NCBI RefSeq assembly: GCF_050003625.1
Contig: NC_134400.1
Location: forward strand, 225,472,085-225,536,084
Reading direction: 5' to 3'
Length of the DNA: 64,000 nt
Source: Haematobia irritans
Taxonomy: Eukaryota; Arthropoda; Insecta; Diptera; Muscidae
Part shown: positions 5,401 to 57,087 of the stretch, piece after piece
Position numbering within the stretch: the stretch's first letter is position 1
How the letters are laid out: each line of letters begins with the position of its first letter
Made by a program: the position numbers and the translations under genes
The notes under the pieces: generated by a model
What the model was told of the DNA's origin: nothing
The model's database searches: none
What the model saw: the letters and a program-made list of their open reading frames with translations, nothing else

Positions 5401-7007
5401 ACGCTTTTCGTGAGTTTTTAAATGTTTAGTTAAACCTTTAGGATAAAGGAATCGCTTTCCACAAACCTTACATTCGCACCTTTTTTCACCTGTTATGTAT
5501 TTAAATATGTTGGAAATATTGGAAATTACAAGAAACACGACAACCAAAGCACAGATAACATACCTGTATGAGTCATTTCGTGCATTTTACAAGCATTGGA
5601 CTTGCCAAATGTTTTACCACAATATTGACAGGCATAGTCCTTTATCTTTTCATGGACAACACGAACGTGCATTCGCAAATTCTGTTTGTTATGTGATGCA
5701 TGTGGACATAGATGACATTTAAATTTTTTCTCAGTGTTATGCGTAGCTATATGCGTATTCCACTCTTGTCTGGTCGTCTTGCCAACTCCGCAATATGGAC
5801 AAACGTAATTCTTAATACCAGCATGACGCATTAAATGGTCTTTAAGAGCACTATTTATCACAAAACGTTTGCCACAAATGTTACATGGGAATGGCAGCTC
5901 TTGACCAGTATGCTTAAACATATGTTTCTTCAAAGCCATTGGGCATTTGAATACTTTTTCACATTCATTGCAAGGATATGCCTTTGGTACATCCTCTTTA
6001 GCAATTTTGTGTACCCGCTTTAAATGCCAATTTAATATGCGTCGCCGTGTAAAAGTCATGTCACAACCTTCTTGAGTACAAGGTATCTTATCCACAATTT
6101 CGTCGTGAGAATGCTCGACATGCAACCGTAATCCGTAGGCTGTGGTAAAACCCCGTTTACAATTCTCAACTTCACATTGAAAGGGTAATTTGTCATTGTG
6201 GAACTTCATGTGTTCCTCATAATTTTTAGTTTTTTTAAACTTTTGATGGCAGATATGACAGTCTATTATCCTATGAAGATGTCTCTCAGCTGCAGGAATA
6301 CGCTTCCGTTTTGGTTTGACTTTTGGGTCCTTCACATCACCATTACCATTGTCCTCCTTGGACTCCTTTTTGATATTTCGAAGCCTTGAAATAAGTGGCT
6401 TATCGTCATCGCTATCACTTTCCTCGGTATCGTCATTGTTTCCGTCGGCCATTTGGAAATCAACATCGCTTTCCTTACTATCATCGCTATATTCTTCCTC
6501 ACTATTTAACTCGTTAGTTTCTTCTTGTTCTACCTTGGTTTCGATCTCTTCCGGCTCCTCCTTGTCAACGCTTTCGAGCATTTTAAACACATCCTCTTCG
6601 TTTTCGATCATTTCCATTTTATGGTTTGTAAGTAAGGGGTCGAAATCTAAATTGTCGTCATCGTCATCAGGCAAACCCACTTGAACACCCTCAATGGGTT
6701 CTGTTGAAGGAGCTTCAATGATATCGAATGAGTTGGTGGGCGGAGGCGGACAATTAACAGTGTGGCTGGCTAGAAGATCTTGAAATCTTTGAACAGAATC
6801 GGCGCAAAGTTTTTGAAAGTCAGCCATATCATTGAGACGTGCATAACACACACCACAAATATTTTTGGGGAACCCATCTTGCTGTTCCACGGACAAAGAC
6901 GTACACATACAAAGTTTCTTGGCTAAACCTGGTATTAGAAACAAATCATACGCCGTACCACTTTCTAAATATTTTAAACAAATTCGACAAATGGAGTGTA
7001 TATCCAT
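2432..7007 (-). CDS. ZAD-domain C2H2 zinc-finger protein, 3 coding exons
   Basis: Probable sequence-specific DNA-binding nuclear protein. Exons on the minus strand are 7007-5564, 5489-4894 and 2854-2432, joined by GT-AG introns of 74 bp and 2039 bp. Phases fit and give 820 residues. The N-terminus is a ZAD (zinc-finger-associated domain, about residues 6-80) with the CRIC and CGVC cysteine pairs, a dimerisation module expanded in insects. An acidic Glu/Asp/Ser-rich linker follows. Twelve C2H2 fingers come next: eight in exon 1 and four in exons 2-3, with a 100-residue spacer after finger 9. The last finger is built across the second splice (CSHCDMRFIQ joined to VVALKRHMKVH), which confirms that junction. 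The tail is a Glu/Gln/Arg-rich coiled-coil segment. ZAD genes diverge quickly, so I do not assign a Drosophila orthologue. Confidence 0.92.
2955..2996. repeat. Short near-perfect hairpin in the intron
   Basis: TTTGTCTGATATGATGAT pairs with ATCATCATATTAGACAAA with one mismatch around a 6-nt loop. It could be the remains of a tiny inverted-repeat element. The arm is short for a microRNA precursor. Confidence 0.55.
3461..3563. mobile_element. Mini-MITE (family K), about 105 bp
   Basis: Contains CACATTACACTTCCAAAATC at the left and GATTTCGAGCCTAATG at the right. It matches the copies at 7725-7830 and 27967-28072, all with the same central CATTTGCCTTA motif. Confidence 0.65.
4434..4466 (-). repeat. 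Fragment of the tRNA-derived SINE
   Basis: The segment CTCACTTAG(G)CTATTCAG followed by TC.ATTGTG matches an internal part of the SINE at 9857-10207. The flanks do not match, so it is a relic. Confidence 0.5.
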
Positions 7008-8333: not shown

Positions 8334-9311
8334 TTATATTCGTGGTAAAGAAAACTCCAAAAACCTAGCTCTAAAAGTATTAATAGGAAAATTGAAACTA
8401 CGAAGGTTTAAAGGTAGTCTATTCCATATACGAGCAACGCGGACAATGAAGGAACGTTCAAATATAGAATGCGATATACGAGGCAACATAATCAGTGGAT
8501 TGCGAGTCGATCTGGAGAAAAACGCCTTATCAAGAAAAAGCAACCTAGATCCACAATGGATGGCCCTATAAATGAAGATCAGGTTCCGCAATTGAACATA
8601 CAGTGCAAAAGGCATCCCAAGGAATTCAATAGCTTGTTCCGAAACGTGGTCAAATGACCCAAACTGAACACAAAACGTACTACCATATTGAATATCCTTT
8701 CCAGCCTATATATTCTCCCCAGTCGTACCGGAAATCACTTCAATACAGTAGCAAATATTCGACATAAGTAAACCAAACGCAAGTTTTCTCCTGACAAACA
8801 AGGGTAAGTACATGTTAGTACTGTAGAGCCTACGTAGGGAAATTAATACCTTCGAAAACAAGTAATCAATATGGGCCCCAAAATTAAGTTTTCCGTCTAG
8901 AAAAGCACCCAAACATTTCATCACATCAACACCTGTAACTGGCGTACCTTTATAAGTAACATCAATTCTCCACGGCTGTTCAAGTACTGGTCCAAAAAGC
9001 AAGTATTTGAATTTCGAGATATTGACATCTAAATTATTTGACTCCAACCAAGTACCAACCATATTCAAGACACAGTCAACACTTGTTTGAAGCTGAGAAA
9101 TACAACTATTATGGAAAAAGAGATGGATATCAGCATACAGAAAAGGAATACAGTACTTTGGAATGCAGCTACAAAGGTCATTAAGATATAGAATAAAAAG
9201 CAATGGACCTAGGACCGAGCCCTGAGGCTCGTTGCGGAATAAACGCAAAAATTTAATGAACAAAAATTTAATATTCGGAAAAATGTAGCAAAAAAAGATG
9301 TACACCATCAA
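8334..9311 (-). pseudogene. Broken LINE (Jockey/CR1-like) reverse transcriptase 3' part
   Basis: Minus-strand frames 9311-8706 and 8615-8334 form the end of a non-LTR reverse transcriptase. The first holds the PQGSVLGPLLF motif, then YADI where the active site should read YADD, so the second catalytic Asp is lost. It continues into the thumb region (MKCLGAFLDGKLNFGAHI). The second frame resumes at FDHVSEQAIEFLG and ends in an IWNRLP-type C-terminus typical of elements without RNase H. A frameshift and a stop separate the frames. The 5' part is missing. It is the same lineage as 10330-11040 and 54815-57087. Confidence 0.85.
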
Positions 9312-15920: not shown

Positions 15921-18143
15921 TTAACATCAAAATTAAAGTCCAATACTCCTTTCTTAGGTTTGAATTCAACACGCCATTCTACATAGCTTTTTCCACTTTC
16001 GACTTTGTGACACTGGCTCATTAAATGTACTCCTTGCCTGGTGAACATGTCCCATTTCACATATTGTCCCATTAGATCTATCGGTTCCACTGGCCCTGAA
16101 CTTATAATGGACTTTGGCGAATTGGACTCATCTAAATGCCAGTCTACCCATAGTGCTATCCCATTGCAACGAGATGAACTGGAATAAACATTGATATTAT
16201 TGTTATTATTATTTTACTCAGTACGTACAATTGAAATGGAATTTTGCCCTGGGTGGACTGATCTTTCTCAAAGTCTTGAAAATTCACTTCTAACAAAATT
16301 TGCGGCTTTGCTAAGGCCCTGCACGGATATTCCCAAAGGGGTTGCGACTCCACTTTAGATTGTGTCAGGAACATAGATTTCTGAAATTTTATATGAAGTT
16401 AAAAAATAATATAATAAGTATGGCTCTTACCTCCACCATTTCATCGAAAAGTCTTAAATCGAAACCCTCGCATTCTTTTACAGGCGTTCTGATCTTGTGC
16501 AAATGCAGAAATTCGACGGGCAAGCAATAAATGTCTGCTGAATAGGGTGATACTTTTACAGATTGAGGCAATTTGTTTTTTATTTGCATCAACAATGTTC
16601 CGAAATAAAAGTTGTCCCACGGAAGTATGGACGTTATGAAATAAGGCTCCGAAAATACAAACTCAATGGTTTGTAGAGTATCATCAGATAAATCACTCAG
16701 CTTCTCAACAAAATTAACATTTTTAATTTGGTTAAATTCAGCTACCTTTTGCATGAAATGTCTTGAATAGCGATGTGGTTCATGGCAAAATACTTCTTTC
16801 GCTCCCAAAGCGCTACAAGCTAATCCAAGAACACAACCATCGCCTAAGACAAGAGTTCTGGTTTCATTTGTAATGTTCTCTTCAAGAAGTCTTATAAATC
16901 CCTTATTACGCACTCCTTGATTCACTTGTCCTATTCTTGATCTTGGGTATGTAAGATGCATACTACAGGAACACTCGTGTCTTTTCACATGCGTATTTCC
17001 ATTGTAATCCTTAGGAAAAACATCGAACCACAATGAATATTCGTCATGATTGGCAGTCAAGATAAAGTAATCATTTGTTTGCAGGTTCAGAGGTTTCGGT
17101 ACATAGTATATTGCTTGCATCCAGTGATCTCTCCAAGGAATTATATTAGGTAGTTGGTCGGAAGGTTGCCTTTTGGCAGCCAGATCTTTAAGTTCTGGAT
17201 GTGCCCAGAATGGTGCACAGGATAATTTTATATTACCTTCAATGTCTAAAGATATCTCCCACCAATAAAATACTAAATCAGTGCTGCCCACAGAACACGT
17301 TTTAACATTGAAATTTCGTTCTCGTTTCGATTCCCTCGCTACCTTACTGTTGAAGTCAAAATCAAATACAACCATTGGCTCGGAAATGGGTCTAAATTTA
17401 TCCAAAGGTAGTTGGGAGAGTTGTACATCATGAAGGTTCGCTTCTCCTTTGCAGTCAGTGATTTCACCTGGAGGTCGCAACAACACGTCTCCATCTAAGT
17501 TCGCTAAAATTTTCAAAGTATTCCATTGTCCTGCCAAATTAGAAGTTACTACTTGAGCAAAGCATGTGGCTTTTGAAGGAATGCAAATAACATCGTCAGT
17601 CAACAAGTGCTCATGAGCATGGTTATAAATGCCGATCGCACCTTCTCCTATCAATTCAGTATCCAAAACTTCACTGACCAATACATTCGCCTTCATCGCC
17701 ATGTCTTGGCCAACTTTTATATCTGTTGACCGTTTTTTTATTAACTTTACTTTGTTCTTCATGCCATTGCTTTCCAATATACTTTCAGCACAATTCGCCA
17801 TAGGTAAAAAAGCTTCGCAGGCAGTTACCGAGTCTGCCCCAGATTGAACAGCCATCATTGATAAAATACCCGTACCTGTCCCTATATCCAGAACATGAGC
17901 TTTCTTACCTTGATCGTGCAACATTGAAATAGTTTTCTGAAGGGCTTCGAAATATTTTTGATTTCTCTCCCGGTCGTGGAGCATATCGCCAAATCCAGCA
18001 TTAGCCACTTCTTGGTGATAGTCGTAAGTATCTTCTTTCGATGCCCATTCATTTTGCCCTGTAATAGGGTTCAATACCTGAGTAAACAGTGCCATAACTC
18101 GTTTTGGAACCACCAAAATATTGACATTAAACCTCGTAATCAT
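15908..18143 (-). CDS. Art7: Protein arginine N-methyltransferase 7
   Basis: Transfers methyl groups from S-adenosylmethionine to protein arginines; the PRMT7 family makes monomethylarginine. Minus-strand exons are 18143-16431, 16380-16229 and 16178-15908, with short introns of 50 bp each. Starting at the second Met (18095, MALFTQVLNP) gives 695 residues, the usual length. The first Met adds 16 residues and is less likely. The first methyltransferase module has motif I (VLDIGTGTG, residues 68-76) and the double-E loop (SEVLDTELIGEG, Glu142 and Glu151). A second, degenerate module follows (LVLGDGCVLGLA, FSEPYF), the tandem arrangement that marks PRMT7. The exon 2 donor was chosen by phase (TT joined to T). 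The last residues GGY and the stop come from a MITE. Confidence 0.95.
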
Positions 18144-22479: not shown

Positions 22480-23266
22480 CCCTGCCAACATTTTTTGAAT
22501 TTGACGGAGCTTCTGAGAATCCCCACTACGTCAAAAACAGTCGTATACAATATCCAAAACTCCTCGGAAAAGCGCCGTCACTATTGAGAAGTTGTACCAC
22601 GCCAAGTTACCACAAAAAAGTATCGCATGAGTGCAATTATTAGGTGCCTTTCTGGATACATTTAGAAGGGCGCCAATAAGAGCCCCTTCAAACAATCAGA
22701 GAAAGTGCATTTTAAGATAGTTGTAAAAGAATCATTGTGGTCAAGTAAAACACGATTATATAGATGTTTATTAATTTTATTAAACATTTATAAATTCTCA
22801 TAAATATAACATTTATACGACTATCACATCACATTTAACACATTTTTATGCATTAATAAAAGATTGATGTTGAGTTACAAGTTGCAAGTTACATGTTGTA
22901 GCGTCTATCTGCCAGCGCTTTTATTCCCAATGGAGGCAGCGTGTCTGGGAAAAATATTTGAAAAACTATCACTTTATTCCATTTGGAAAGTCAAAAATTG
23001 TTCACCAATATACCTTTTACAATTTTAAGCGAAATAACTATGTTTTCAGCATTTCATTATCGTTTTTATTTAAATAAATTATAAGATGCTAGTTGTGCTT
23101 GGTGTTTCACAAAATATAAAATGGCTCTTGCAACAATAGTGATGACAAAATACTTTTATGCGAATAGTGATGGCAAAATACTATCACATTTGGCGATTGT
23201 TGCAGTGTCACTTACGAGTCTGTGGTAGCGATGAGGATGAAATGGAACTTTGAAATGCTGGCAGGG
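22480..23266 (-). mobile_element. Family J DNA transposon, complete, 787 bp
   Basis: Ends CCCTGCCAACATTT and TGCTGGCAGGG. AC is present on both sides (22478-22479 and 23267-23268). No long frame, so non-autonomous. J copies elsewhere are 765-789 bp once inserts are removed. The 2-bp duplication and CCC end resemble family G; the superfamily is unassigned. Confidence 0.85.
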
Positions 23267-29275: not shown

Positions 29276-30031
29276 ATGTTCAAAAACAACAATATTTTTT
29301 CTGTACCAAATATCAGAATGCAAAACAAACATAAAAAAGCGGCTATGAAGTTAAAAATAACAAAGGAAACAAAATATTTACATATGTAAATAGTAGCAGA
29401 TAATGTAGAAAAACATTGGTGCCTAAGCAAGGGTTAAATAAAAACGGCAATGAAGTTTCAGCTTTTCATTGCCGTTTCGCTTAGTTATTTCGCTTAAAAT
29501 TGTGAAAGGTATATTGGTGAACAATTTTTTACTTTCCAAATGGAATATAGTGATAGTTTTTTCAAATATTTTTCCTCCATTGGCAATAAAAGCACTGGCT
29601 GATAGACGCTACAACATGTAGCTTGCAACTTGTAACTCAACATCAATCTTTTATTAATGCACAAAAATATGTTAACTGTGATGTGATAGTCGTATAAATG
29701 TTATATTTATAAATGTTTAATAAACATCTAAACAATCGTGTTTTACTTGACCACAATGATTCTTTTACAACTATCTTAAAATTCACTTTTTCTGATTGTT
29801 TGAAGGGGCTCTTATTGGCGTCCTTCTAAATGTATCCAGAAGGGCACCTAATAATTGCACTCATGCGATACTTTTTTGTAGTAACTTGGCGTGGTACAAC
29901 TTCTCAATAGTGACGGCGCTTTTCCGAGGAGTTTTGGACTGTTTTCGACGTAGTGGGGATTCTCAGAAGCGCCCCCAAATTCAAAAAATGTTGGCAGGGT
30001 GGTAACGTATATTTTATTGGTTACATTTTAA

Positions 30032-31391
30032 GGCCGGTACTCTGTTCGGTTTTCGCGTTGAAACTCCATACAAAACCAAAACATGCGAAAAACTAGCGAA
30101 ATTTTTTCCATTTGTGGTACTTTGTTTTTTTTTCGAGTTGAAAAACTGACGTAACTCGCGTAGTCAGTATTAGCTCCGTTCGAGAACCCGATAATTTTTG
30201 ATAATTGTTACAAATTTTTACTGGAAGTCGTTCGTTTACACCAAAACGCCACCAAAAGAGAGCCGGAGAGAGACTACATTTGACAGTTATGAGATAGAGA
30301 AATTGCAAGTTTTTGCTAGAGATTTTTTTCCCAGTAAAATCTTGCAAACCATAGCATACGTTGCCAGCTGGTTATTGATAACAAACAAAGTACCAATACA
30401 ATGTACATGTTCGGCAACTACGATTGGAAGTTAAATATACATGATTCGTTTTTTGTTTTCAATGTTTTAGCAGCTGAAATTTTCAATGTGCAAATAGTTA
30501 CTGGATACCGTTCGTCTACTTTTCAGCAATTTTAAGCAAAGAGTGTAAACTACACTCTTACTCTCTTGCTAGTTTTTACTGGATATTTTTTACTGGAAAA
30601 GTACGCGAACAGACCTATTGTCATAACATGGCGCCATTTGCAATGTGAATTAAGAAATAATTTATTTATTAAACTGATTTTTGTGAATTTATAACACAAA
30701 AGTGGATCTGATTATTATTTAAAAATGTAATCTGATGATTGATAAAACAAAGTATAACATGGAGTTGTATTTCCATAATAAACTAGCAACAATATCTAGC
30801 CGCTCCCTACTATATGGTAGAATATAAATAATGTACATATATAACATGAAATTTAAACACAAATGTTAACAAAATAAAAGCTTTATTTTGTGAATTATAT
30901 TTTACAATCGTTTCATTTGTACTGGGCATCGGGATAATAAACACAAAACATAATTTAAACAAAAGGAGGCACAGCAATTGATGTTCCAAAACAAGCATTA
31001 GCACTTCAACCAACATGTATAGTACCGAGGTAGCAATGAATGGAATCACAAGAATTAATTGCTATGTTCCAAAAAATAAAATGGAGCACTGTAGAATTTA
31101 TTTTTATAATTCCAAAGATATTTGTAAAATAACTGCGCCTGCTTCTTCTTTTTCAAATTATTTATTTTGTATGCGTGTGTGTGTAAATCGAGCCACTAGT
31201 TGCCTGTGTATATGTAATAATTTCGTGACATTTTGCGATGTTGTCAATACATTTCGATGAAATAAACGCGAAAAAGTTCCAAAATGGATGTTTTTTTCCT
31301 TCAAAATATATTGTCAACACTATCATTTTTCAACGCGAAACAATGATTGAGTGGAACTTTTTTCGCACCAACAAACAGAGTACCGGCCTTT
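30032..31391. mobile_element. Family C-type MITE (C2 variant) with an unexplained insert
   Basis: Left end AGGCCGGTACTCTGTTCGG (30031 onward) and right end CAAACAGAGTACCGGCCT, with TTA beside both. The sequence matches other C copies up to about 30150 and again from about 30625 (ATGGCGCCATTTGC). The 470 bp between carry TTTTTACTGG words and no clear inverted ends. The right half equals C2 at 32729-33486. Confidence 0.7.
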
Positions 31392-31638
31392 ACATGCCAC
31401 ATGTTATTATTGTCAAAAGCTTGTCTGTTTAGTACCTATCCCAATAAACACAGGGTGAACGTTTTTCAAATGCAACAACTTTTCAGTTTGAGGGTAAATA
31501 TAATTTTCAACATAAATTCAACTTGACTTGAAATAGCTCATCTTCAATATATCATCAAATTGTTTGCGAATTACTTCCAATTTGCCAAAATGTTGACGAA
31601 ATCTTTGAAAAGGTGTTGAAGATAAAGGCCGGTACTAT

Positions 31639-32427
31639 CCCTGCCAGCATTTCAAAGTTCCATTTCATCTTCATCGCTACCACAGACTCGTAAATGTCAC
31701 TACAACCATCCTACTGTGATGGGGGGCAGCATATCATAAAGTACAAAATGTACTTCATACATGTATTTTGCCATCACTACTTTTACAAAAGCCATTTTAT
31801 TTTTTGTGAAACGCCAAGCGCAACCAGCTTGTTATATTTTATTTAAATAAAAACGAAAATAAAGTTCTGAAAACATAGATTTTACGCTTAAAATTGTGAA
31901 AGGTATATTGGTGAACAATTTTTGATTTTCCAAATGGAATAAAGTGATTGTTTTTCAAATATTTTACAGACACGCTGCCTCCATCGAATAAAAACACTGG
32001 CTGATAGACGCTGTAACATGTAACTCGCTACTTGTAACTCTACATCATCATTAATGCAAAAAATTATGTTAAATGTGATGTGATAGTGGTATAAATGTTA
32101 TATTTTTAAGAATTTGTAAATGATTAATCAAATTAATAAATATCTAAACAAACGTGTTTTACTCGACCACAATGATTCTTTTACCACTATCTTAAAATGT
32201 GCTTTTTCTGATTGTTTGGAGGGTCTCTTATTGGCGTCGTTCTAAATTGATCTATAAAGGCACCTAATAATTGCACTCATGCGAAACCTTTTTGTAGTAA
32301 CTTGGCGTGGTACAACTTCTCAATAGTGACGGCGCTTTTCCGACGAGTTTTTGATATCGTATATGATTGTTTTCGACGTACTGGGGATTCTCAGAAGCGC
32401 CCCCAAATTCAAAAAATGTTGGCAGGG
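31639..32427 (+). mobile_element. Family J transposon (J4), 789 bp, nested in C
   Basis: Ends CCCTGCCAGCATTTC and ATGTTGGCAGGG. AT at 31637-31638 and 32428-32429 duplicates the AT of the C terminus GGTACTATGTTC. Confidence 0.88.
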
Positions 32428-32728
32428 ATGTTCATTCTTGCGAAAAATTTTTATGGAAACCATTATTTCGCACATAGAAAGCGGCGTTTTTTTAGGTAGC
32501 TTGGAGCGCTATTTTACAGGGAGCGATATTGGATTAAGTTGGTGGTTGTTGCTTGTTTTTACAAAATAACATTTTATTTTTCCTTGGGCAATTGATCTGC
32601 TATTCCTTTGATCCTTTGTATAGTTTCGGAACAAAAATATGGTCCGTGTTTGATTTATAAACCCGCACAAATAGTTTTTAATAAATAAATTATTTCTTAA
32701 TTCACATTGCAAATGGCGCCGTGCTATA

Positions 32729-33486
32729 AGGCCGGTACTCTGTTCGGTTTTCGCGTTGAAACTCCATACAAAACCAAAACATGCGAACAACTAGCGAAAT
32801 TTTTTCCATTTGTGGTACTTTGTTTTTTTCTGATGATTGATAAAACAAAGTATAACATGGAGTTGTATTTCCATAATAAACTAGCAACAATATCTAGCCG
32901 CTCCCTACTATATGGTAGAATATAAATAATGTACATATATAACATGAAATTTAAACACAAATGTTAACAAAATAAAAGCTTTATTTGGTGAATTATATTT
33001 TACAATCGTTTCATTTGTACTGGGCATCGGGATAATAAACACAAAACATAATTTAAACAAAAGGAGGCACAGCAATTGATGTTCCAAAACAAGCATTAGC
33101 ACTTCAACCAACATGTATAGTACCGAGGTAGCAATGAATGGAATCACAAGAATTAATTGCTATGTTCCAAAAAATAAAATGCAGCACTGTAAAATTAGTT
33201 TTTTAATTCAATAGATATTTGTAAAATAACTTCGCCTGCTTCTTCTTTTTCAAATTATTTATTTTGTATGCGTGTGTGTGTAAATCGAGCAACTAGTTGC
33301 GTATGTATATGTAATCATTTCGTGACAGTCTGCGATGTTGTCAATACATTTCTATGAAATAAACGCAAAAAAGTCCCAAAATGGCTGTTTTTTCCCCTCA
33401 AAATATATTGTCAACACTATCATTTTTCAACGCGAAACAATGATTGAGTGGAACTTTTTTCGCACCAACAAACAGAGTACCGGCCT
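32729..33486. mobile_element. Family C2 MITE, 758 bp, nested in C
   Basis: Ends AGGCCGGTACTCTGTTCGG and GAGTACCGGCCT. ATA stands at 32726-32728 and 33487-33489, where the uninterrupted C reads GTGCTATAAACGTC once. Confidence 0.86.
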
Positions 33487-34164
33487 ATAAACGTCAGTTT
33501 TTCAACACGAAAAAACAAAGTATCACAAATGGAAAAAATTTCGCAAATTTTTCGCATTTTTTGGTTTTGTATGGAGTTTCAACGCGAAAACCGAACAGAG
33601 TACCGGCCTTTAAGCGTAATAACACAGCAATTGATGTTCCAAAACAAGCATTAGCACTTCAACCAACATGTATAGTACCGAGGTAGCAATGAATGGAATC
33701 ACAAGAATTAATTGCTATGTTCCAAAAAATAAAATGCAGCACTGTAAAATTAGTTTTTTAATTCAATAGATATTTGTAAAATAACTTCGCCTGCTTCTTC
33801 TTTTTCAAATTATTTATTTTGTATGCGTGTGTGTGTAAATCGAGCAACTAGTTGCGTATGTATATGTAATCATTTCGTGACAGTCTGCGATGTTGTCAAT
33901 ACATTTCTATGAAATAAACGCAAAAAAGTCCCAAAATGGCTGTTTTTTCCCCTCAAAATATATTGTCAACACTATCATTTTTCAACGCGAAACAATGATT
34001 GAGTGGAACTTTTTTCGCACCAACAAACAGAGTACCGGCCTATAAACGTCAGTTTTTCAACACGAAAAAACAAAGTATCACAAATGGAAAAAATTTCGCA
34101 AATTTTTCGCATTTTTTGGTTTTGTATGGAGTTTCAACGCGAAAACCGAACAGAGTACCGGCCT
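33069..34164 (+). repeat. Local direct duplication, 541 bp, offset 555
   Basis: 33069-33609 and 33624-34164 look identical over every stretch I compared by eye. They are separated by 14 bases (TTAAGCGTAATAAC). The unit spans the right part of C2 and the right end of the outer C. Near-identity implies a very recent event or an assembly artefact. Confidence 0.88.
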
Positions 34165-34972
34165 TAATATGAGAAAACTTTGACAAAACACTACCCTAAA
34201 ATGCAACGAAAAAACCATGTGGTTTTCAATACTTATTTGTGCAACGAAGTTCGTGGTCAATTGCAAGAAATAAAAAAATGGAAAATTTTAGACAAATAAC
34301 CAAATAGTTTATAAAAATAGGTAAGTGAAAATAAAAAATGAAATAAAACATTAAGGAAGTTACTAAATGTATATCTCTTTGCAGAAAACTAAAATTATGG
34401 ATTCTACGTTCTTGAAAACATTAAAAAGCTGACCAATGAAAAAAATGGTGGACAATTAACTGGAACTGCTTCAAATAGTTTATAATAATTGGTACGTCAA
34501 TATGAAAAATTAAATCAACACTAAAGAAGTCACTAAATTTAAATTTCTTTGCAGAAAACCAAAATCTTTGGATGCTACATTCTTGCAAACAATAAGGAGC
34601 TGACCAATGAAAAATGAGTGGCTTATCGACAAGAAAAAGTTTCCAGAAACATTACAAGTGCAACCAATTAAAATTGTTAAAAACAACAAATTGTTGAAAT
34701 CAACAACTTCTGGATGAAAATGTGCATCACATCGTCAGTTTAATTCATATGCTATTATTAGTTTAAAATGGATATTTTGTGAATCCCTTCTGCTTGAAAT
34801 CAATTCTAACACGCGGTCCAGTACGTTCCTAATTTCAAATTGCCCGCATGTTAATAAAAGGAAGGAACCAAACGGAAGGAAATCGAATTATCAATGCAAA
34901 AGTGTTTACTAATAATGTTTAAGGGCCAGTTTCTCAATGTCTTGTTATTATTTATCGTGTCGATAAAACAGC

Positions 34973-36193
34973 CCCTGCCAGCATTTCAATGTTCCATTTC
35001 ATCCTCATCGCTACCACAGACTCGTAAGTGACACTGCAACAATCGCCAACTCTGATAGTATTTTGCCATCACTATTCGAATGAAAGTATTTTGCCATCAC
35101 TATTGTTACAAGAGCCATTTTATATTTTGTGAAACACCAAGCGCAACTGGCTTATTATAATTTATTTCAATGAAAACGAAAATAAAGTGCTGAAAACATA
35201 GTTATTACGCTTAAAGGCCGGTACTCTGTTCGGTTTTCGCGTTGAAACTCCATACAAAACCAAAAAATGCGAAAAATTTGCGAAATTTTTTCCATTTGTG
35301 ATACTTTGTTTTTTCGTGTTGAAAAACTGACGTTTATAGCACGGCGCCATTTGCAATGTGAATTAAGAAATAATTTATGTATTAAAACCTATTTGTGCGG
35401 GTTTATAAATCAAACACGGACCATATTTTTGTTCCGAAACTATACAAAGTATCAAAGGAATAGCAGATCAATTGCCCAAGGAAAAATAAAATGTTATTTT
35501 GTAAAAACAAGCAACAACCACCAACTTAATCCAATAACGCTCCCTATAAAATAGCGCTCCAAGCTACCTAAAAAAACGCCGCTTTCTATGTGCGAAATAA
35601 TGGTCTCCATAAAAATTTTTCGCAAGAATGAACATAGTACCGGCCTTAAAATTGTGAAAAGTAAATTGGTGAACAATTTTTGACTTTCCAATTGGTATAA
35701 AGTGATAGTTTTTCAAATATTTTTCCAGACACGCTGCCTCCATTGGGAATAAAAGTACTGGCTGATAGACGCTACAACATTTAACTTACAACTTGTAACT
35801 CAACATCAATCTCTTATTAATGCATAAAAATGTGTTAAATGTGATGTGATAGTCGTATAAATGTTATATTTATGAGAATTTATAAATGTTTCGTAAAATT
35901 AATAAACATCTAAACAATCGTGTTTTACTTGACCACAATGATTCTTTTACAACTATCTTAAAATGCACTTTGTCTGATTGTTTGAAGGGGCTCTTATTGG
36001 AGTCCTTCTAAATGTTTCCAGAAGGGCTCCTAATAATTGCACTCATGCGATACTTTTTTGTAGTAACTTGGCGTGGTACAACTTCTCAATAGTGACGGCG
36101 CTTTTACGAGGAGTTTTGGATATCGTATACGACTGTTTTCGACGTAGTGGGGATTCTCAGAAGCGCCCCCAAATTCAAAAAATGTTGGCAGGG
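34973..36193 (+). mobile_element. Family J transposon (J5) in L, itself carrying a C element
   Basis: Ends CCCTGCCAGCATTTC and GTTGGCAGGG, with GC at 34971-34972 and 36194-36195. Subtracting the C insert leaves 786 bp, the normal J length. Confidence 0.88.
35215..35646. mobile_element. Family C MITE, 432 bp, nested in J5
   Basis: Ends AGGCCGGTACTCTGTTCGG and CATAGTACCGGCCT. TAA stands at 35212-35214 and 35647-35649. Uninterrupted J copies read CGCTTAAAATTGTG once. Confidence 0.9.
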
Positions 36194-36394
36194 GCTGATC
36201 CCATACAAAAAATTTACTAACCGGAGGTCTATCCACCGGTTAAATTTAATCGGAGGATGAGAAACTGGCCATAAGATATTTAAAGTTTTGTTGTTTGTTT
36301 TTTTTTTTTTTTTTGTTCTTATTTGTTGATATGTTTAATAAGATTATTATTTATCAATTGGTATTGTAGTGTATTATGTAGTGTAGTGTATTAT

Positions 36395-37159
36395 CCCTGC
36401 CAGCATTTCAAAGTTCCATTTCAACCTCATCGTTACCACAGACTCGTAAATGTCACTTCAACCATCATGAAAAGGTACATCAAAAAGTACATGCAAGTAA
36501 TTTGCCATCCCTACTGTTAAAAAAGCCATTTTTTTTGTGAAACGCCAAGCGCAACCAGCTTGTTATATTTTAATTAAATAAAAACGAAAATAAAGTTCTG
36601 AAAACATAGATTATACGCTTAAAATTGTGAAAGGTATATTGGTGAACAATTTGGTGATTTTCCAAATGGAATAAAGTGATTGTTTTTCAGATATTTTACA
36701 GACACGCTGCCTCCATGGAATAAAAACACTGGTTGATAGACGCAGCAACATGTAACTCGCTACTTGTAACTCAACATAATCATTAATGCCAAAAATTATG
36801 TTAAATGTAATGTGATAGTGGTATAAATGTTATATTTTTAAGAATTTGTAAATGTTTAATCAAATTAATAAATATCTAAACAAACGTGTTTTACTCGACC
36901 ACAATGATTCTTTTACAACTATCTTAAAATTCACTTTTTTTGATTGTTTGGAGGGTCCCTTATTGGCGTCGTTCTAAATTGATCTATAAAGGCACCTAAT
37001 AATTGCACTCATGCGAAACATTTTTGTAGTAACTTGGCGTGGTACAACTTCTCAATAGTGACGGCGCTTTTCCGACGAGTTTTTGATGTCGTATATGATT
37101 GTTTTCGACGTAGTGGGGATTCTCAAAAGAGTCCCCAAATTCAAAAAATGTTGGCAGGG
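36395..37159 (+). mobile_element. Family J transposon (J6), 765 bp, nested in G1
   Basis: Ends CCCTGCCAGCATTTC and ATGTTGGCAGGG, with AT at 36393-36394 and 37160-37161. The corresponding site in the G copy at 37740-37790 is uninterrupted. More diverged from J4 and J5 than they are from each other. Confidence 0.86.
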
Positions 37160-37382
37160 ATTATATATTATATTTTGATGAAAATGAATAAATTATACAA
37201 AATTCATAGAATTTTGGCTTTGACTTTCAATTTGAAGTGGGGATATCATTCATACAAATTTAGGTTGAAAAGTATTAGCAATGATGTTAATTTTGAATTT
37301 GACTCGCATCGAAAATTGTTTGACAAATTATTGAGTAGCGGTGCATTTCAATTTGAGGATAACACTTGAGATATTATAGCCA

Positions 37383-38830
37383 CCCAATAAACACAAACGT
37401 TTGAAAAATGCTAAATTTCAACAAATTTTCAAACATTTTTTCAAAGGATTAGGGTAGTATTCAAGTTGAGAAATTGTTGAGAAAATCGCGTTCTCAACAA
37501 AAAACAGACATTACCCTCAACAGTGAAATTCAACACATTAGCAATAATATCTCAAGTATTATCCTCAAATTGAAATGCATCGCTACTCAATAATTTGTCA
37601 AACAATTTTCGATGCGAGTCAAATTCAAAATTAACATCGTTGCAAATACTTTTCAACCTAAATTTGTATGAATGATATCCCCACTTCAAATTGAAAGCCA
37701 AAGCCAAAATTCTTTGAATTTTGTATAATTTATTCATTTTCATCAAAATAAAATATATAATAATATACTACACTACATAATACACTAAAATACCAATTGA
37801 TAAATAATAATCTTATTAAACATATCAACAAATAAGAACAAAAAAAAAAAAAACAAACAACAAAACTTTAAATATCTTAAACATTATTAGTAAACACTTT
37901 TGCATTGATAATTCGTTTTCCTTCCTTTTGGTGTCATAAAACAGCATTAAAATTTATTAGCATGCGGGCAAGTTGAAATTAGGAACGTACTGGACCGCGT
38001 GTTAGAATTGATTTCCAGCAGAAGGAATTCACAAAATATCCATTTTAAACTGATAATAGCATATGAATTAAACTGACGATGTGATGCCCATTTTCATCCA
38101 GAAGTTGTTGATTTCAACAATTTGTTGTTTTTAACAATTTTAATTGGTTGCACTTGTAATGTTTCTGGAAACTTTTTCTTGTCGATAAGCCACTCATTTT
38201 TCATTGGTCAGCTTCTTAATGTTTGCAAGAATGTAGCATCCAAAGATTTTGGTTTTCTGCAAAGAGATTTAAATTTAGTGAATTCTCTAAAGTTTTGATT
38301 TAATTTTTCATATTGCCGTACCAATTATTATAAACTATTTGAAGCAGTTCCAGTTAATTGTCCACCATTTTTTCATCGGTCAGCTTTTTAATGTTTTCAA
38401 GAACGTAGAATCCATAATTTTAGTTTTCTGCAAAGAGATATACATTTAGTGACTTCCTTAATGTTTTATTTCATTTTTTATTTTCACTTACCTATTTTTA
38501 TAAACTATTTGATTATTTGTCTAAAATTTTCCATTTTTTTATTTCTTGCAATTGACCACGAACTTCGTTGCACAAATAAGTATTGAAAACAACATGGTTT
38601 TTTCGTTGCATTTTAGGGTAGTGTTTTGTCAAAGTTTTCTCATATTATCTTCAACAACTTTTCAAAGATTTCGTCAACATTTTGGCAAATTGGAAGTAAT
38701 TCGCAAACAATTTGAAGATGTATTGAAGATGAGCTATTTCAAGTCAAGTTGAATTTATGTTGAAAATTATATTTACCCTCAAACTGAAAAGTTGTTGCAT
38801 TTGAAAAACGCTCATCCTGTGTTTATTGGG
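37383..38830. mobile_element. Family G element (G2), 1448 bp, inside G1
   Basis: Ends CCCAATAAACACAAACG and CATCCTGTGTTTATTGGG. CA on the left and TA on the right are probably a decayed 2-bp duplication. Beyond it the G1 sequence resumes (AATGTGTTGAATTTCACTG). Contains diverged inverted segments and no long frame. Confidence 0.83.
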
Positions 38831-39095
38831 TAATGTGTTGAATTTCACTGTTGAGGGTAATGTCTGTTTTTTGTTGAGAACGCGATTTTCTCAACAATTT
38901 CTCAACTTGAATATTACCCTAATCCTTTGAAAAATTGTTGAAATTTAGCATTTTTCAAACGTTTGTGTTTATTGCGATTAATTCAAATGGCCTTGCAAAT
39001 TGCTTGCTTTCAACAAATTTTCCAATAGGTTTGAAGCATTAAAATGAAATTTAGTTTGAAAAGTTGTTGCTAATATGTTGAGAAATTGTTGCTAA

Positions 39096-40765
39096 AGCTG
39101 AGTACTATCCCAATAAACACAAACGATTGAAAAATGCTAAATTTCAACAATTTTTCAAACATTTTTTCAAAGGATTAGGGTAATATTCAAGTTGAGAAAT
39201 TGTTGAGAAAATCGCGTTCTCAACAAAAAACAGACATTACCCTCAACAGTGAAATTCAACACATTAGCAATAATATCTCAAGTGTTATCGTCAAATTGAA
39301 ATGCATCGCTACTCAATAATTTGTCAAACAATTTTCGATGCGAGTCAAATTCAAAATTAACGTCGTTGCAAATACTTTTCAACCTAAATTTGTATGAATG
39401 ATATCCCCACTTCAAATTGAAAGTCAAAGTCAAAATTCTATGAATTTTGTATAATTTATTCATTTTCATCAAAATAAAATATATAATAATACACTACACT
39501 ACATAATACATTACAATACCAATTGATAAATAATAATCTTATTAAACATATCAACAAATAAGAACAAAAAAAAAACATACAACAAAACTTTAAATATCTT
39601 AAACATTATTAGTAAACACTTTAGCATTGATAATTCGTTTTCCTTCCTTTTGGTGTCATAAAACAGCATTAAAATTTATTAACATGCGGGCAAATTTAAA
39701 TTAGGAACGTACTGGACCGCGTGTTAGAATTGATTTCCAGCAGAACGAATTCACAAAATATCCATTTTAAACTGATAATAGCATATGAATTAAACTGACG
39801 ATGTGATGCACATTTTCATCCAGAAGTTGTTGATTTCAACTATTTGTTGTTTTTAACAATTTTAATTGGTTGCACTTGTAATGCTTCTGGAAACTTTTTC
39901 TTGTCGATAAGCAACTCATTTTTCATTGGTCAGCTTCTTAATGTTTACAAGAATGTATCATCCAAAGGTTTTAGTTTTCTGCAAAGAGATTTAAATTTAG
40001 TGACTTCTCTAAAGTGTTGATTTAATTTTTCATATTGGCGTACCAATTATTATAAACTATTTGAAGCAGTTCCAGTTAATTGTCCACCATTTTTTCATCG
40101 GTCAGCTTTTTAATGTTTTCAAGAACGTAGAATCCATAATTTTAGTTTTCTGCAAAGATATATACATTTAGTGACTTCCTTAAAGTTTTATTTCATTTTT
40201 TATTTTCACTTACCTATTTTTATAAACTATTTGGTTATTTGTCTAAAATTTTCCATTTTTTTAATTTCTTGCAATTGACCACGAACTTCGTTGCACAAAT
40301 AAGTATTGAAAACCACATGGTTTTTTCGTTGCATTTTAGGGTAGTGTTTTGTCAAAGTTTTCTCATATTATCTTCAACACCTTTTCAAAGATTTCGTCAA
40401 CATTTTGGCAAATTGGAAGTAATTCGCAAACAATTTGAAGATGTATTGAAGATGAGCTATTTCAAGTCAAGTTGAATTTATGTTGAAAATTATATTTACC
40501 CTCAAACTGAAAAGTTGTTGCATTTGAAAAACGCTCATCCTGTGTTTATTGGGATGTTCAGTTTTCAAGCTGAAAACCAGCTTATTTTCACGGTTACTTT
40601 TTTTAATCAATTAATTTCGAAATATTAAATTGTTCGCAATCAATACATTGGACCTTTTCCATCCATAATTTGAAGAGACTTGATAAAACTGTTATCGTTT
40701 TCATATATATTTTTGCACTTTTAATTTAGTGTTTTGGTGAAAAACTCGAACATAGTACTCACCTT
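39096..40765. mobile_element. Family B MITE interrupted by G3
   Basis: Ends AGCTGAGTACTAT and GAACATAGTACTCACCT, with TAA at 39093-39095 and 40766-40768. G3 sits after the ACTAT of the left terminus. Confidence 0.86.
39109..40553. mobile_element. Family G element (G3), 1445 bp, uninterrupted
   Basis: Ends CCCAATAAACACAAACG and CATCCTGTGTTTATTGGG, with AT at 39107-39108 and 40554-40555. It is the best reference copy for G in this window. Frames up to about 95 codons occur but none is shared as a conserved protein. Confidence 0.88.
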
Positions 40766-42457: not shown

Positions 42458-44880
42458 ATGAACCTGTTTTTGGTATTTCTGCTATGTTTTCTTGTGCGTT
42501 TATCTTCTGTGTTCGTAGTCAAAACATTCTACGTTCCTGATGAATACTGGCAGAGTCTTGAAGTGGCGCATAAAATTACCTTCGGGTAGGTTGGTTTCTC
42601 ATGAAGCATGAATATAAAATTCAGTGAAACCTCTCAAACTTAGACACTCTGAAATCCGGACACCTCCCAAAAATGCACATTTGTCTGGGGACGTTTGCTA
42701 TATTAACATATTAAATTTAACCCTCTCATACCTGGACACCTATCATAGGTGAACAAAATTTAGGCGATCGTGTGTCCACCTTTCAGAGGTTTCAGTGTAG
42801 TAGTAATACCAAATTTGCGAATTGTCTCGGTAATAAGTATCTATGGGGCTTGAACTGTTTGCTATATATTATTTCTCTTTTTAGTTATGGTCATCTTACT
42901 TGGGAATGGGTCCATGGAATAAGAAGCTACGTTTATCCAATGCTAATAGCTGGTGTCTATAAACTCTTGGCGTTGCTCAGTTTAGACACAGTACAATTGT
43001 TAGTGTTAATACCCCGCATTTTACAGGCCACCTTGTCGTCATACTCAGACTATCGCTTTTTTATTTGGACTGGAAAAAAGAAATGGGGCCTATTTCTGAT
43101 TATTTCCTCGTGGTTCTGGTTCTACACAGGATCTCGGACGTTAAGTAACACGTTGGAATCATCGTTGACTACCATTGGGTTGAGCTACTTCCCTTGGTAT
43201 GGTGAAGGAATAACATACCTATGGCCTGCCATTTTATGTTGTTTTTTAAGACCAACAGCAGCAATAATTTGGTTACCATTAATATTTTATCATTTACGGA
43301 AATCAAAATTCTCATGGACCGAATTGATTTTTAAACGCTATTTGGTGATTGGGTAAGTTTTACAAAGCAATGTTCACTGCATATATATTTAACAATATTT
43401 TTCCTACGCATAGTGTATTGGTGGCCACAGTTGTGGTTGGATTAGACTCGTACATGCACGGGCATATTCTTATCACCCCATATGAATTCTTGAAATATAA
43501 CGTATTTCAAAACATTGGAAGTTTCTATGGGTCACATCCTTGGTAAGTCATGCCTTGCAACCAATAGAATAATCATTTCAATTTGTTGTCCAGTGAAAAT
43601 CAGTTTCTTCCGTATGACATTTTGGATATAGTCCTGAATCTTATTCATTTTGGTTTATGTCATATTTTATATAAATATAAAAGAGTATCACAGCTATTTA
43701 TATACATATATAGTTATACATATTTGAACATTGTAATACAATGTTGTCGCATAGGTGAAGTTCGGATTAAAATTTCTCAATAATTGTCCAATGTTTTAGG
43801 TACTGGTATTTCACCGTCGGTCTACCCACCACTTTGGGAATAACTTTCTTACCTTTCCTGTTTGGTATAATCGAAACTATTAGACACCATGATACATTTC
43901 CAGTGCGAAAATACCTGCTGACTACAATATTCCTAGCTCTTGCTGTTTTAAGCGCAGTTGAACACAAGGAGTTCCGGTTTGTAAGTGTGTTGATGCCATT
44001 GTGTTTATATATTGCCTCAGACACATTAACAAGATGGAGTTACAAAGCCTCAAGGTAAGATTTATTGGGAATTATTTATATAAATAATTTTTATTATTTT
44101 CTGATGTAGTTTACTTTTGTGGATTGTGGCTATTCTTATTGTTGTTGGGAACGCCATACCTGCTTGGTATTTGAGCACTGTACATCAAAGGGGGCCAATT
44201 GATGTGATGGTACAGCTTGGTGATATCGCGTCCGAATACCGGAGTGAACAGAATCGCCCCGCCAATATATTATTTTTAATGCCTTGTCACTCAACACCGT
44301 ATTATAGGTAAGATATTTTATATACAGTTCGTTTTTTTATAAAGATTTAATCATCGATTGTAATCGCAGTCATATCCATCAAAACGTCACCATGCGATTT
44401 TTGACATGTGAACCAAACCTAAAGCAAATTCCAAATTACAAAGATGAAGCTGAGTTGTTTTTTGATTCTCCAGTGCATTGGCTACGTTCTCACATCCCTT
44501 CATATCCACGATCTGCCAAACCCACACATGTGGTATTGTATGAACCCTTGGCTGAAATAATTAATGAGTTTCTATTGGACTATAAACAATTGTATAGGAT
44601 TGACAATGCCGAGGTAAACCACAATATTGATTCCAAAAATATCCTCAATGAATGGTTCATACACATGAAGGAGATACAGTTAAATGTTGATTTTCTTTTA
44701 CAGTATATAAATTCAAGAACCGGAAAGCATATTCTGATCTACCAACGATTGCGTGAAGGTGAAGAAAATACATTTAATCGCAATGAATTCCACAGGGAAG
44801 TAGAAACCCCAATATTGTCTGAATTCGAAGATAATTTTGTTACGAACGAATTTGAGACTGAAAGAAATCTCTTTAATTAA
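42458..44880 (+). CDS. PIG-B: GPI mannosyltransferase 3 (PIG-B)
   Basis: ER-lumenal alpha-1,2-mannosyltransferase that adds the third mannose to the GPI anchor precursor. Six exons: 42458-42585, 42885-43352, 43414-43542, 43800-44054, 44110-44307 and 44370-44880. All introns are GT-AG and all junctions lie in the same phase, giving 562 residues. Exon 1 encodes a signal-anchor-like helix followed by VPDEYWQSLEVAH, which holds the acidic motif of the GT22 family. The exon 1-2 splice builds TFGYGHLTWEW. Exon 4 holds HKEFRF, the family signature. Many hydrophobic helices lie between. The C-terminal domain (FLTCEPN, DEAELFF, SHIPSYPRSAKPTHVVLYE) is lumenal-type. The last 40 residues are acidic and less typical. 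It is convergent with the TMEM267-like gene. Confidence 0.96.
42622..42796. mobile_element. pogo-like MITE in PIG-B intron 1
   Basis: Ends CAGTGAAACCTCT and AGAGGTTTCAGTG-like, with TA on the right. The left flank is TT, a decayed TA. Inner GACAC and GGACAC words are repeated. CAGTGAAACCTC ends recall insect pogo/Tigger elements, but no transposase is present. It makes up more than half of the 299-bp intron. Confidence 0.7.
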
Positions 44881-52609: not shown

Positions 52610-52760
52610 CATTGTACGACATCTATACGGTTGACATTTCTTGTGTTTGTAGAAGAGACATTTTCGTCCTCTCGTGTTTTTATTCTCTCTGCCCTGGTCA
52701 CCTGGTATATGACATATGACAACGCGCATTATTTATTTATTTATATTTCCTTTTGTTGAA

Positions 52761-53462
52761 ATGGGTTCCGTATTTTTGAGAGGAAATCTTTCGAGACTTT
52801 TGTGTATACGGGGATACTCAAAAACTTTCAATGTACCATCGAATCAATTTATTTTAAAGAAGGCACCAGTTCCTTCCGTGAATCACATTTTGCCATTTCA
52901 ATCCAAAAGATTAAGACACAATACATTTCGTGACATTCGGTTATTATGGAGAAATGTTTTTGGAAAGTATTTACTTGTGACTAATATTTTAGGGTCTGGA
53001 ATACTCATGGTTGTTGGCGATGTTGCGGCTCAAGAAATTGAACATCGGAAAGGCGAAAAATCCGAACGCTTTGACTTGTCGAGAATAGGGAGAATGTTTA
53101 TTGTGGGAGCTTTGCTGGGACCTTTGCATCATTATGTATACGCTTGGATGGACAAAGTAATGCCTATTGCGAATTTAAAGAACATTGTGAAGAAAATACT
53201 TATAGATCAACTGATTATGTCACCTGCGTGCATTCTAATATTTTTCTATTCAGCCTGTTATTTGGAGAGAAAAAACGTGAAGGAAACCAACGAAGAACTA
53301 CGTCAAAAGTTTCTCTTTATATATTGTATGGATTGGTTGCTTTGGCCAGGTGCCCAATATTTTAATTTCCGTTATTTGGACACTAAATATCGTGTTACAT
53401 TTGTTAATATCTGCACCGCTCTATACAATATATTCATGTCATATATGAAACATGATTATTAA
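52761..53462 (+). CDS. Mpv17/PMP22-family protein, MPV17L2-like
   Basis: Predicted small multi-pass membrane protein; MPV17L2 is a mitochondrial inner-membrane protein linked to mitoribosome assembly. Single exon of 233 residues. The Met at 52761 was chosen because the preceding 15 codons (from 52716) look like 5' UTR. The N-terminal 60 residues are basic and hydroxylated, as in a mitochondrial presequence. Family landmarks: LWRNVFGKYLLVTN, then LMVVGDVAAQEIE, then GPLHHYVYAWMDK, and the C-terminal signature WLLWPGAQYFNFRYLDTKYR. No intron is present, which is unusual for the family but does not look like retroposition because the frame is intact and no poly(A) is seen. A broken partial copy lies 4.8 kb away. 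Confidence 0.92.
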   Translation: MGSVFLRGNLSRLLCIRGYSKTFNVPSNQFILKKAPVPSVNHILPFQSKRLRHNTFRDIRLLWRNVFGKYLLVTNILGSGILMVVGDVAAQEIEHRKGEKSERFDLSRIGRMFIVGALLGPLHHYVYAWMDKVMPIANLKNIVKKILIDQLIMSPACILIFFYSACYLERKNVKETNEELRQKFLFIYCMDWLLWPGAQYFNFRYLDTKYRVTFVNICTALYNIFMSYMKHDY

Positions 53463-54814: not shown

Positions 54815-57087
54815 TGTAGGGCCCGCAATCGTGCGAAGACTGTCAAGAGAAGGATGAAATGCAAATCCCATGCTTCCATGTTTCGCGAATGCTCGAGTTC
54901 GAAAGCGATGTGGAATGTAATCAGGGGGGTGGACTAATAAGTGATGATGGTTTTCGTACTGATCATACTACGGTGGATGATGTTAATGATTTGAATTCGG
55001 CTTTTGTGCGTAACCAGTTGGGTCCTACTGTGGAAGGAGAGCGAACGTTTCCGATTGATTTTGCGGAAACCGGATTTTCATTCAGTTGCATTTCATCCGA
55101 TGATCTTATTATGGCTTTCGAGCAAATTAAGTCTAATGCACCATGCTGTGACGGGTACCCTTTGACATTTTTTAAGATAATTTTTCCTCATCTGTCGAGG
55201 TACTTTCTTCATGTAGTTAATACTATTATTATGACGTCTTCCTTTCCAAGTGGTTGGCAAGGTTGTACCGATCAGGAAAAAGTCCGAGCCCACATCTTCG
55301 GATATGTATCGGCCAATATCATTGCTGCCCATATTGTCGAAGGTGGTCGAATATGTTTTAAAGAGACAAATGTCGGAATATTTGGAGCGTAACAACATGC
55401 TCAGCGACGTCCAATGTGGTTTTAGGAGTCACAGAAGTTCTACGATGTTGTTAGTAGGTCTGACTGATTCCATCAGAAGCAATTTTGTGAACCATAGGAC
55501 TAGTGTCTTACTGTCTCTCGACCTTGTAAAGGCATTTGATCGATTAGACCACGGTATTTTGATACGGAAGCTTCATTCCATTTATGGATTTTCTTCAAAC
55601 GCATGTAGGCTCATTAATTCATATTTGACAGATAGGCGTCAGTATGTCCAAGTTAAAGATTTGGCGTCTGATGTCCTCCCTGTGAGAAGCGGTGTTCACC
55701 AGGGATCGGTCCTCGGCCCATTATTATTCATTACATTCATTAATGACTTTTTTGATCATGTCGGAGAATGGTGTATGCCATTTTCGTATGCGGATGATAT
55801 TCAATTGCTTTTTAACGGTGAGAACCACTTTGCCGACGTGCTGCAGGCGAGATTGACCATGTCATGAACCTGGTATTGTAATGGATGACTTCGAATAGAT
55901 TGTCGGTGAATCCGACAAAAACTAAGGCAATGCTGTTTTCCCCTAATAGTTCTGGGGATGTTAATTTGATATATGACTCCCAGACGATTAATTTTGTTCA
56001 GAGCACAAAGTGCTTAGGTGTCACTATAGATAATAGGCTATCTTTTTCTACGCATATTGACAACGTGGTTGCTCACACCCACCTTGCCCTTCGTCGCCTG
56101 TATAACACGGATTTAGTACTACCGTTTCATGTTAGGAGAATATTAGTCCACGCTTTGATCATGCCTCATTTTCTGTACTGCATTGAGGTGTTTTGTGGTA
56201 CTTCAAGGGAGAATATGAAACCTCTTGCGCTTTCATTTAACCGAGTAGTTCGTTATCTGTATTCTCTTAGACGTTTCGATCATGTATCTGCATCTGCTAA
56301 GCATTTTCTGGGATGTTCCTTCTGGTGTTATATTGACATCCGTTCGATAATTCTATTCTATAATTTACAAGCGACAATCGCCTTCTTTTTTGGCGGATTT
56401 GTTTAATTTTACCCGATCTCGCAGAACGAATCAGCTTATAATTTCGAACGCTAGGGGCTATATGGACAAATCATTTCAGACTCGCACAGTCAGACATTTC
56501 AACTGTCTCCCTGATACATTAAGAACATTTTGTTTGAACACGAAAACTTATCGAAACAAATTAATTGAATACTTTTGTGAGATATAATCGAGTAGTTACT
56601 CCACTATAATTACTGTATGTTTACACTGGGAACTTTCATAAATATTTGTTAGTTTGTTTACATAATTTTTGAATACTGAAATATCGAAACAAATTTATTC
56701 AATACTTTTGTGAGTCATAAGTCTTTCAAGACTGATTATTTACATTGTCATAAATAAATATATACATATTTTTAAGCTACTACTAAGAATTTTTGTTATA
56801 TATTTTTTTCTTTTCTTTCCTTTTATATAAAGAAGTATTCCTATTAAAACATACAAAAGACAATTATCTTTTCTTGTTTCTTGCTTAATTATACACTTCT
56901 CTGTTTTGTGCAAATGATTGTTTATTATAAGTATTCAACATCTTTTTTGCACACCTTATGTATTATTATGTATGAATATTGTATGAAACTCTAGAGAGTA
57001 GTCCATTGTAATTATTTTATATTGGCCAAATAGGCTTAGAATTACAGGCTCTGAACGAATAAATAAAAAAAAAAAAATAAATAAATA
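54815..57087 (+). pseudogene. LINE (Jockey/CR1-like), 5'-truncated, frameshifted, with 3' tail
   Basis: Four overlapping frames (54859-55392, 55250-55867, 55885-56406, 56390-56587) form the end of a non-LTR ORF2. In order: a linker before the fingers (TFFKIIFPHLS), the palm (LLSLDLVKAFDRLDHG), the thumb entry HQGSVLGPLLF, an intact active site SYADDIQLLF, MxxKCLGVTIDNRLSFSTHI and the C-terminal FDHVSASAKHFLG. The catalytic aspartates survive, but three frameshifts and a stop after ARLTMS kill it. A 3' UTR of about 480 bp ends in an A-rich AATAAATAAAAAAAA tract at 57057-57087. No RNase H. Best preserved of the three copies here. Confidence 0.87.

Follow-up and report, generated by a model that had tools for sequence, protein, structure and literature searches.

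The stretch of DNA analysed here (the window, 64,000 nt) covers positions 225472085-225536084 of contig C4 in the 1.17-Gb, 181-contig genome of Haematobia irritans, and contains a stack of small transposons nested one within another. Element boundaries were set by BLAST with intact copies together with exact searches for the element ends, and eight inserts were found within a single element of a family named G, the apparently non-autonomous outer element G1 (31440-38976, minus strand; ends CCCAATAAACACA, target duplication AT). A depth of four is reached once, in the order G1, L, J5 and C3. L, a 126-nt Harbinger-like miniature inverted-repeat transposable element (MITE) with GGGCCAGTTTCTCA ends, lies in G1 at 34923-36271 on the plus strand between two copies of TAA; J5 (34973-36193, minus strand) lies in L between two copies of GC; and C3 (35215-35646, minus strand) lies in J5 with TAA on both sides, at the recurrent site ACGCT[TAA]AATTG. 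The side branches of G1 are a C complex flanked by TAA (31626-34164, plus strand), which consists of C1, J4, C2 and a tandem duplication; J6 (36395-37159, minus strand, AT); and a second G element, G2 (37383-38830, plus strand), a case of self-nesting. Within the complex, J4 (31639-32427, minus strand, AT) sits near the end of C1, and C2 (32729-33486, plus strand, ATA), a relative of C with which it has the terminal 108 bp in common at 92%, sits in C1. The nesting, the families and the target duplications which the original prediction had read from the sequence are all borne out. Of the 12 window elements whose flanks were compared, 11 have exact duplications, in line with its claim of a target duplication at almost every level, the exception being G2, which is flanked by CA and TA.

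The prediction had also held that the empty sites could be read from uninterrupted copies nearby, and this proved correct. When each insert was taken out with one target copy and the remainder aligned to intact copies of G, J or C, G1 was reduced to 1426 nt and was colinear with G3 (39109-40553, plus strand, AT) except for the last two bases of G3, at 94.6% identity, the corresponding figure against G2 being 95.2%. J5 was reduced to 786 nt, 94.2% identical to J2 (22480-23266, plus strand, AC) over the full length, and L to 126 nt, whilst the C complex without J4 and C2 matches C0 (40768-41199, plus strand, TAA) across its 432 nt at 98.6%. An exact 2-bp match has a chance of 0.08 per site, against 21 of 30 observed for J and 18 of 20 for G, and the 2-bp duplications of these two families are therefore not due to chance. 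The four-deep stack is thus confirmed as real in the assembled sequence; it is of a familiar kind, ordinary in that respect and useful as a worked example. G3 itself has a counterpart on contig C5 at 100% (rounded) over positions 1-1445.

The site of C within J

The placing of C3 in J5 was compared with that of other C elements in a sample of 48 distinct full-length copies (49 rows, as the window copy C0 was entered twice), comprised mostly of the 40 best-scored of 1505 first-look candidates, together with copies from the same stretches and C3 of the window; since it was drawn mostly from the best-scored candidates, the sample leans to young copies. Four of the 48, C3 included, lie in J elements, all at one J nucleotide and in one orientation, a point absent from the original prediction. 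The J bodies of these four cases belong to three J subfamilies, and the four resident C copies have no common substitution relative to the consensus. When J5 with its C3 was used as the query, a search which favours the same site and orientation and is unusable as a rate, nine J copies were each matched in one piece across C, among them J5 and three copies of the first sample, and at least another two C-bearing J copies were recovered in pieces. All five of the new one-piece copies carry C at the same site, four of them with an exact TAA duplication.

When a target matrix derived from 40 C insertions lying outside J was run over the 12 motif-bearing J copies, the J site occupied by C scored highest of 734-771 positions in all 12, although these copies are related and do not count as 12 independent tests; a thirteenth copy, deleted at this place, was left unscored. 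In a leave-one-out analysis of 43 sites, for which the related sites in J were held out together and other related sites were not, the true site was the best within 400 nt either side in 16 cases, and on average 0.089 of the local TAA/TTA sites scored as high, compared with 0.506 (sd 0.070, 20 runs) for random sites. This confirms that the preference of C extends beyond TAA/TTA. C would thus appear to use a PIF/Harbinger-type transposase whose preferred target extends around TAA/TTA and is roughly palindromic, and J to hold one near-ideal copy of that target, which would be why the fourth level, C3 in J5, sits exactly where other C copies sit in other J elements. As a separate observation, seven C copies (L002, L004, L008, L011, L013, L031 and L035) abut another terminus, of type AGGCCGGT or AGGTGGGTA, as if using its duplication.

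The original prediction had argued from C in J5 and J4 in C that the two families were active over overlapping periods. That argument is insufficient alone, because J4 and J5 belong to subfamilies 12.5% apart and successive waves of J5-type elements, then C, then J4-type elements would fit. The conclusion nevertheless stands: at L039, outside the window, a C copy 0.23% from the consensus lies inside a J4-type J 1.5% from J4, and as J4 itself lies in C1, C and this J subfamily each occur nested in the other. Overlapping activity of C and J is therefore supported. The proposed dating of each family by divergence from its consensus was carried through for C (mean 0.31% over 49 copies, C1 included; C3 1.39%, C1 0/432), and J was dated by tree branches instead, that of J4 being 0.0014. 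Containment does not impose a strict order of events, because a cut-and-paste element may move with its passenger; the entry of C3 into J5 may have preceded or followed the insertion of J5 into L, as either order fits the sequence.

The tandem duplication in the C complex

Without J4 and C2 the C complex is 987 nt long and not 432, because of a tandem duplication with a period of 555, the second feature that the original prediction had not reported. Its first copy (33068-33610, plus strand), comprised of the tail of C2 and the tail of C1, is identical over 543 nt to its second (33623-34165, plus strand), and the two are split by the 12-nt filler TAAGCGTAATAA (33611-33622, plus strand). Zero differences in 543 nt place the upper 95% bound on divergence at 0.55%. 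The filler continues the inverted flank of C3 in J5: 33485-33623 is an exact inverted match of 35201-35339 over 139 nt, which passes beyond the end of C3 and reaches into J5. Within the window the filler was found only at the duplication junction and, inverted, beside C3, which is its nearest donor at 1.6 kb. The whole 151-nt junction is spanned by one of the 41 genome matches reported (40 of 1341 candidates scored), and besides this match the first 84 nt are perfect, among the matches listed, only in the local C3 and in L019.

The filler is likely to be the scar left when DNA repair or replication switched template. DNA synthesis would have passed the end of C1, moved over to the inverted C3 already in place, copied 12 nt of J5 flank and rejoined C2 upstream with 1 bp of common sequence, the consequence of which would be the tandem duplication. 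On the simplest reading, the duplication followed the entry of C2 into C1, and also that of C3 into J5 provided that the filler came from the local C3.

Taken together, it is highly probable that this nest consists of non-autonomous, MITE-type DNA transposons and grew by repeated cut-and-paste insertion, each element relying on a transposase supplied from another part of the genome, with the target preference of C picking the J site and a template switch producing the duplication. Repeats of 98-100% identity within 10 kb are the usual setting for misassembly, in which case the order of the nest would be a chimera of similar repeats; however, all junctions but those of G2 bear an exact duplication whose length is that typical of the family, and the elements become colinear once the inserts are excised, neither of which is created by chimeras, and the window lies inside a 227.9-Mb contig, which makes such an artefact extremely improbable. 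It is also very unlikely that C lands at random in J and that the common site is a coincidence or was copied by gene conversion. The C-based sample holds only four cases, the index copy among them, but each J has 40-49 TAA/TTA sites, so that three independent hits on one of 45 would have a probability of about 5e-4, and the matrix which ranked the J site first was trained without J. For the duplication, slippage or unequal exchange, without template switching, would predict the same perfect identity of the two copies, yet neither would add 12 nt which exactly continue a neighbouring inverted copy, a match expected by chance at about 6e-8 to 2e-7, and we consider this origin unlikely.

A further alternative is that J5 and C3 hopped into L as one composite, so that levels three and four were a single event and there were fewer insertions than levels. 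The J-resident C copies read have a common site and orientation, an early tree placed J5 with the C-bearing J of L019, and in this pair the J parts differ at about 21 of 768 positions (from 2.7%) and the C parts at 7 of 432, which fits an equal age (Fisher p 0.24). However, J5 has six empty relatives at 98.5-98.6% identity and is closer to these (1.4-1.5% divergence) than to the L019 J (2.7%), so that a joint J[C] ancestor is disfavoured, and the J[C] copies are spread over several J subfamilies, beside J copies which lack C. Amplification of a composite J[C] had been taken as the main alternative until the early trees grouping J5 and L019 were undone by C-less copies of the J5 type: 29 rows match the right half at 98-99% and lack C, and in 21 of these the left half, at 96-99%, abuts it. 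A tree which included six such copies removed the support for a J5-L019 composite. We thus regard entry as a composite as rather doubtful, although there may have been a one-off J5[C3] hop which left no other surviving copy, and C3 probably entered a J5-type element independently.

Several observations nevertheless weigh against repeated insertion guided by target choice and followed by a local template switch. G2 has no exact target duplication, and the one inexact case among the five new J-resident C copies, L071, has C flanked by TTA and TAA. The target matrix ranks other known nests lower than the J site (3rd of 1418 twice in G, and 6th of 405 for C2 in C). Wherever C was read in J it had one orientation; a moving composite would account for this, whereas a near-palindromic target does not. 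Between the J bodies of L004 and L071 the divergence is 1.13%, compared with 1.4% to the nearest empty copy, in a distance set which excludes JC_L074 and JC_L075, and this pair could therefore have a composite ancestor. The ends of C were not found near the six transposase loci read out of 150 scored. Finally, the filler has an equally perfect source in L019, which lies at another place on this contig.

Element families and their known counterparts

The families are short (C 432 bp, L 126 bp, J about 790 bp, G 1445 bp and C2 758 bp) and end in inverted repeats of 13 exact bases in G, 14 with one mismatch in J, 16 exact in C2, 13 after a mismatched first base in L, and 11 exact in C, or 26-27 when mismatches and a gap are allowed. 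No stop-free frame longer than 109 aa was found in C, L, J, G or C2, and all five therefore look non-autonomous. A longer relative of C2, with TTA on both sides, lies at 30031-31389 of the window; it has C2 positions 1-101 and 101-758 with about 600 extra bases between them.

Exact 3-bp target duplications were found in 44 of the 48 C copies, and are TAA or TTA in 38 of these and ATA, TAT, AAA or TTT in the other six. The terminal inverted repeats of C, AGGCCGGTACT at both ends, begin with A or G, as described for PIF/Harbinger elements of the PHIS superfamily in PMC4482050, and the 3-bp TAA/TTA duplications of C and L and the ends of L fit the same description. What differs from that description are the ATA, TAT, AAA and TTT duplications and the finding of no transposase-bearing element with C ends in the six loci read. 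Harbinger-type transposase matches are themselves abundant in the genome (267 candidates). For L, of which one copy was read, with TAA on both sides (TWA), a 3580-bp element at C5:151042122-151045701 has 13 of 14 terminal bases in common; 66 terminal columns align with a score of 38, compared with 31 for the best of 100 mononucleotide shuffles. This element has 16-bp perfect inverted ends and a frame without stops encoding PF13359 (DDE_Tnp_4, Harbinger transposase), and its own duplication is AAA, not TWA. On their ends and duplications, C and L behave like PIF/Harbinger MITEs.

G and J, both with CCC..GGG termini and with 1965 and 2841 first-look candidates genome-wide, are the families hardest to place. 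The exact 2-bp duplications of J (21 of 30 copies, J2 included and three with damaged or truncated ends; 10 of 12 in an overlapping set) have no fixed dinucleotide, being TA in four, AT, GT and CT in three each, TT, TC and AA in two each, and AC and CA in one each. Those of G (18 of 20 full-length copies picked from 55 matches) include 11 different dinucleotides, and of the two copies that lack them one is flanked by a 3-bp match. Tc1/mariner elements duplicate a TA target, and this assignment was rejected as TA accounts for only 4 of 21 in J and 2 of 18 in G; ISL2EU elements duplicate AT, and this assignment was rejected because the duplications of both families vary in sequence. Transposases of the CMC (EnSpm/Mirage/Chapaev) group are marked by C(2)C and H(3-4)H motifs. 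The variable 2-bp duplications of both families lie within the 2-4 bp given for this group in PMC4482050, but their ends are not the CA..TG which PMC12730594 gives for most CMC elements. Among the part of the literature matches to the element terminal sequences which was surveyed, all look unrelated by title. It is conceivable, if rather improbable, that G and J are moved by a transposase lineage outside the named superfamilies, with J serving as a standing landing pad for C through one near-ideal target of fixed orientation. The J sites (n=21) would seem to have a weak symmetry around the 2-bp target, with G (10) and T (11) before it, mirrored on the other side by A (11) and C (12). J4 and G3 both lie in GTACT[AT]GTTC.

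Nested Tourist and Stowaway MITEs of plants were reportedly described by Jiang and Wessler in 2001. Nested DcSto MITEs of carrot with readable duplications are in print (PMC3695323), and so are nested insertions in Harbinger elements (PMC2213677). The plant nests of PMC3695323 resemble the present one in having MITEs within MITEs, TA or TTA duplications, clustered insertions and independent insertions at exactly one position; the present case differs in its animal genome, its four levels and a repeated site which is predicted by a matrix from other sites. Fork stalling and template switching at terminal inverted repeat transposons, as described in PMC8277862, likewise involves switching near such elements, short microhomology and, in one family, tandem duplications, whereas the donor here is likely a copy of the same MITE 1.6 kb off and no gene was captured. 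Nested long terminal repeat retrotransposons of plants (PMC6911290) also occupy preferred positions of older elements, but they are retrotransposons with another mode of insertion. Nested MITEs, insertion at the same position and template switching are all known, and here they coincide in one readable locus. As a worked example it offers readable empty sites, a target preference of one family which predicts its nesting in another, and a duplication which dates itself; it also cautions that target choice can bring elements to nest at one site again and again, and that knowing which element contains which does not give the order of events.

Other nests of the same families were also noted. Candidates for G within G occur at C4:63075867-63078731 (G000) and C1:132389705-132391256, at positions which differ from that in the window, and an apparent J within J is present at C1:109165595-109167168 (L017/L042). 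The remainder of the window contains fragments of other mobile elements, with integrase (Integrase_p58_C) and reverse transcriptase (RVT_1) matches, at 3-659, 8706-9311 and 55250-55867, and host-like genes for an arginine methyltransferase (16389-18143), an Alg9-type mannosyltransferase (42772-43356), Mpv17 (52716-53462) and a zf-AD zinc finger protein (5526-7007).

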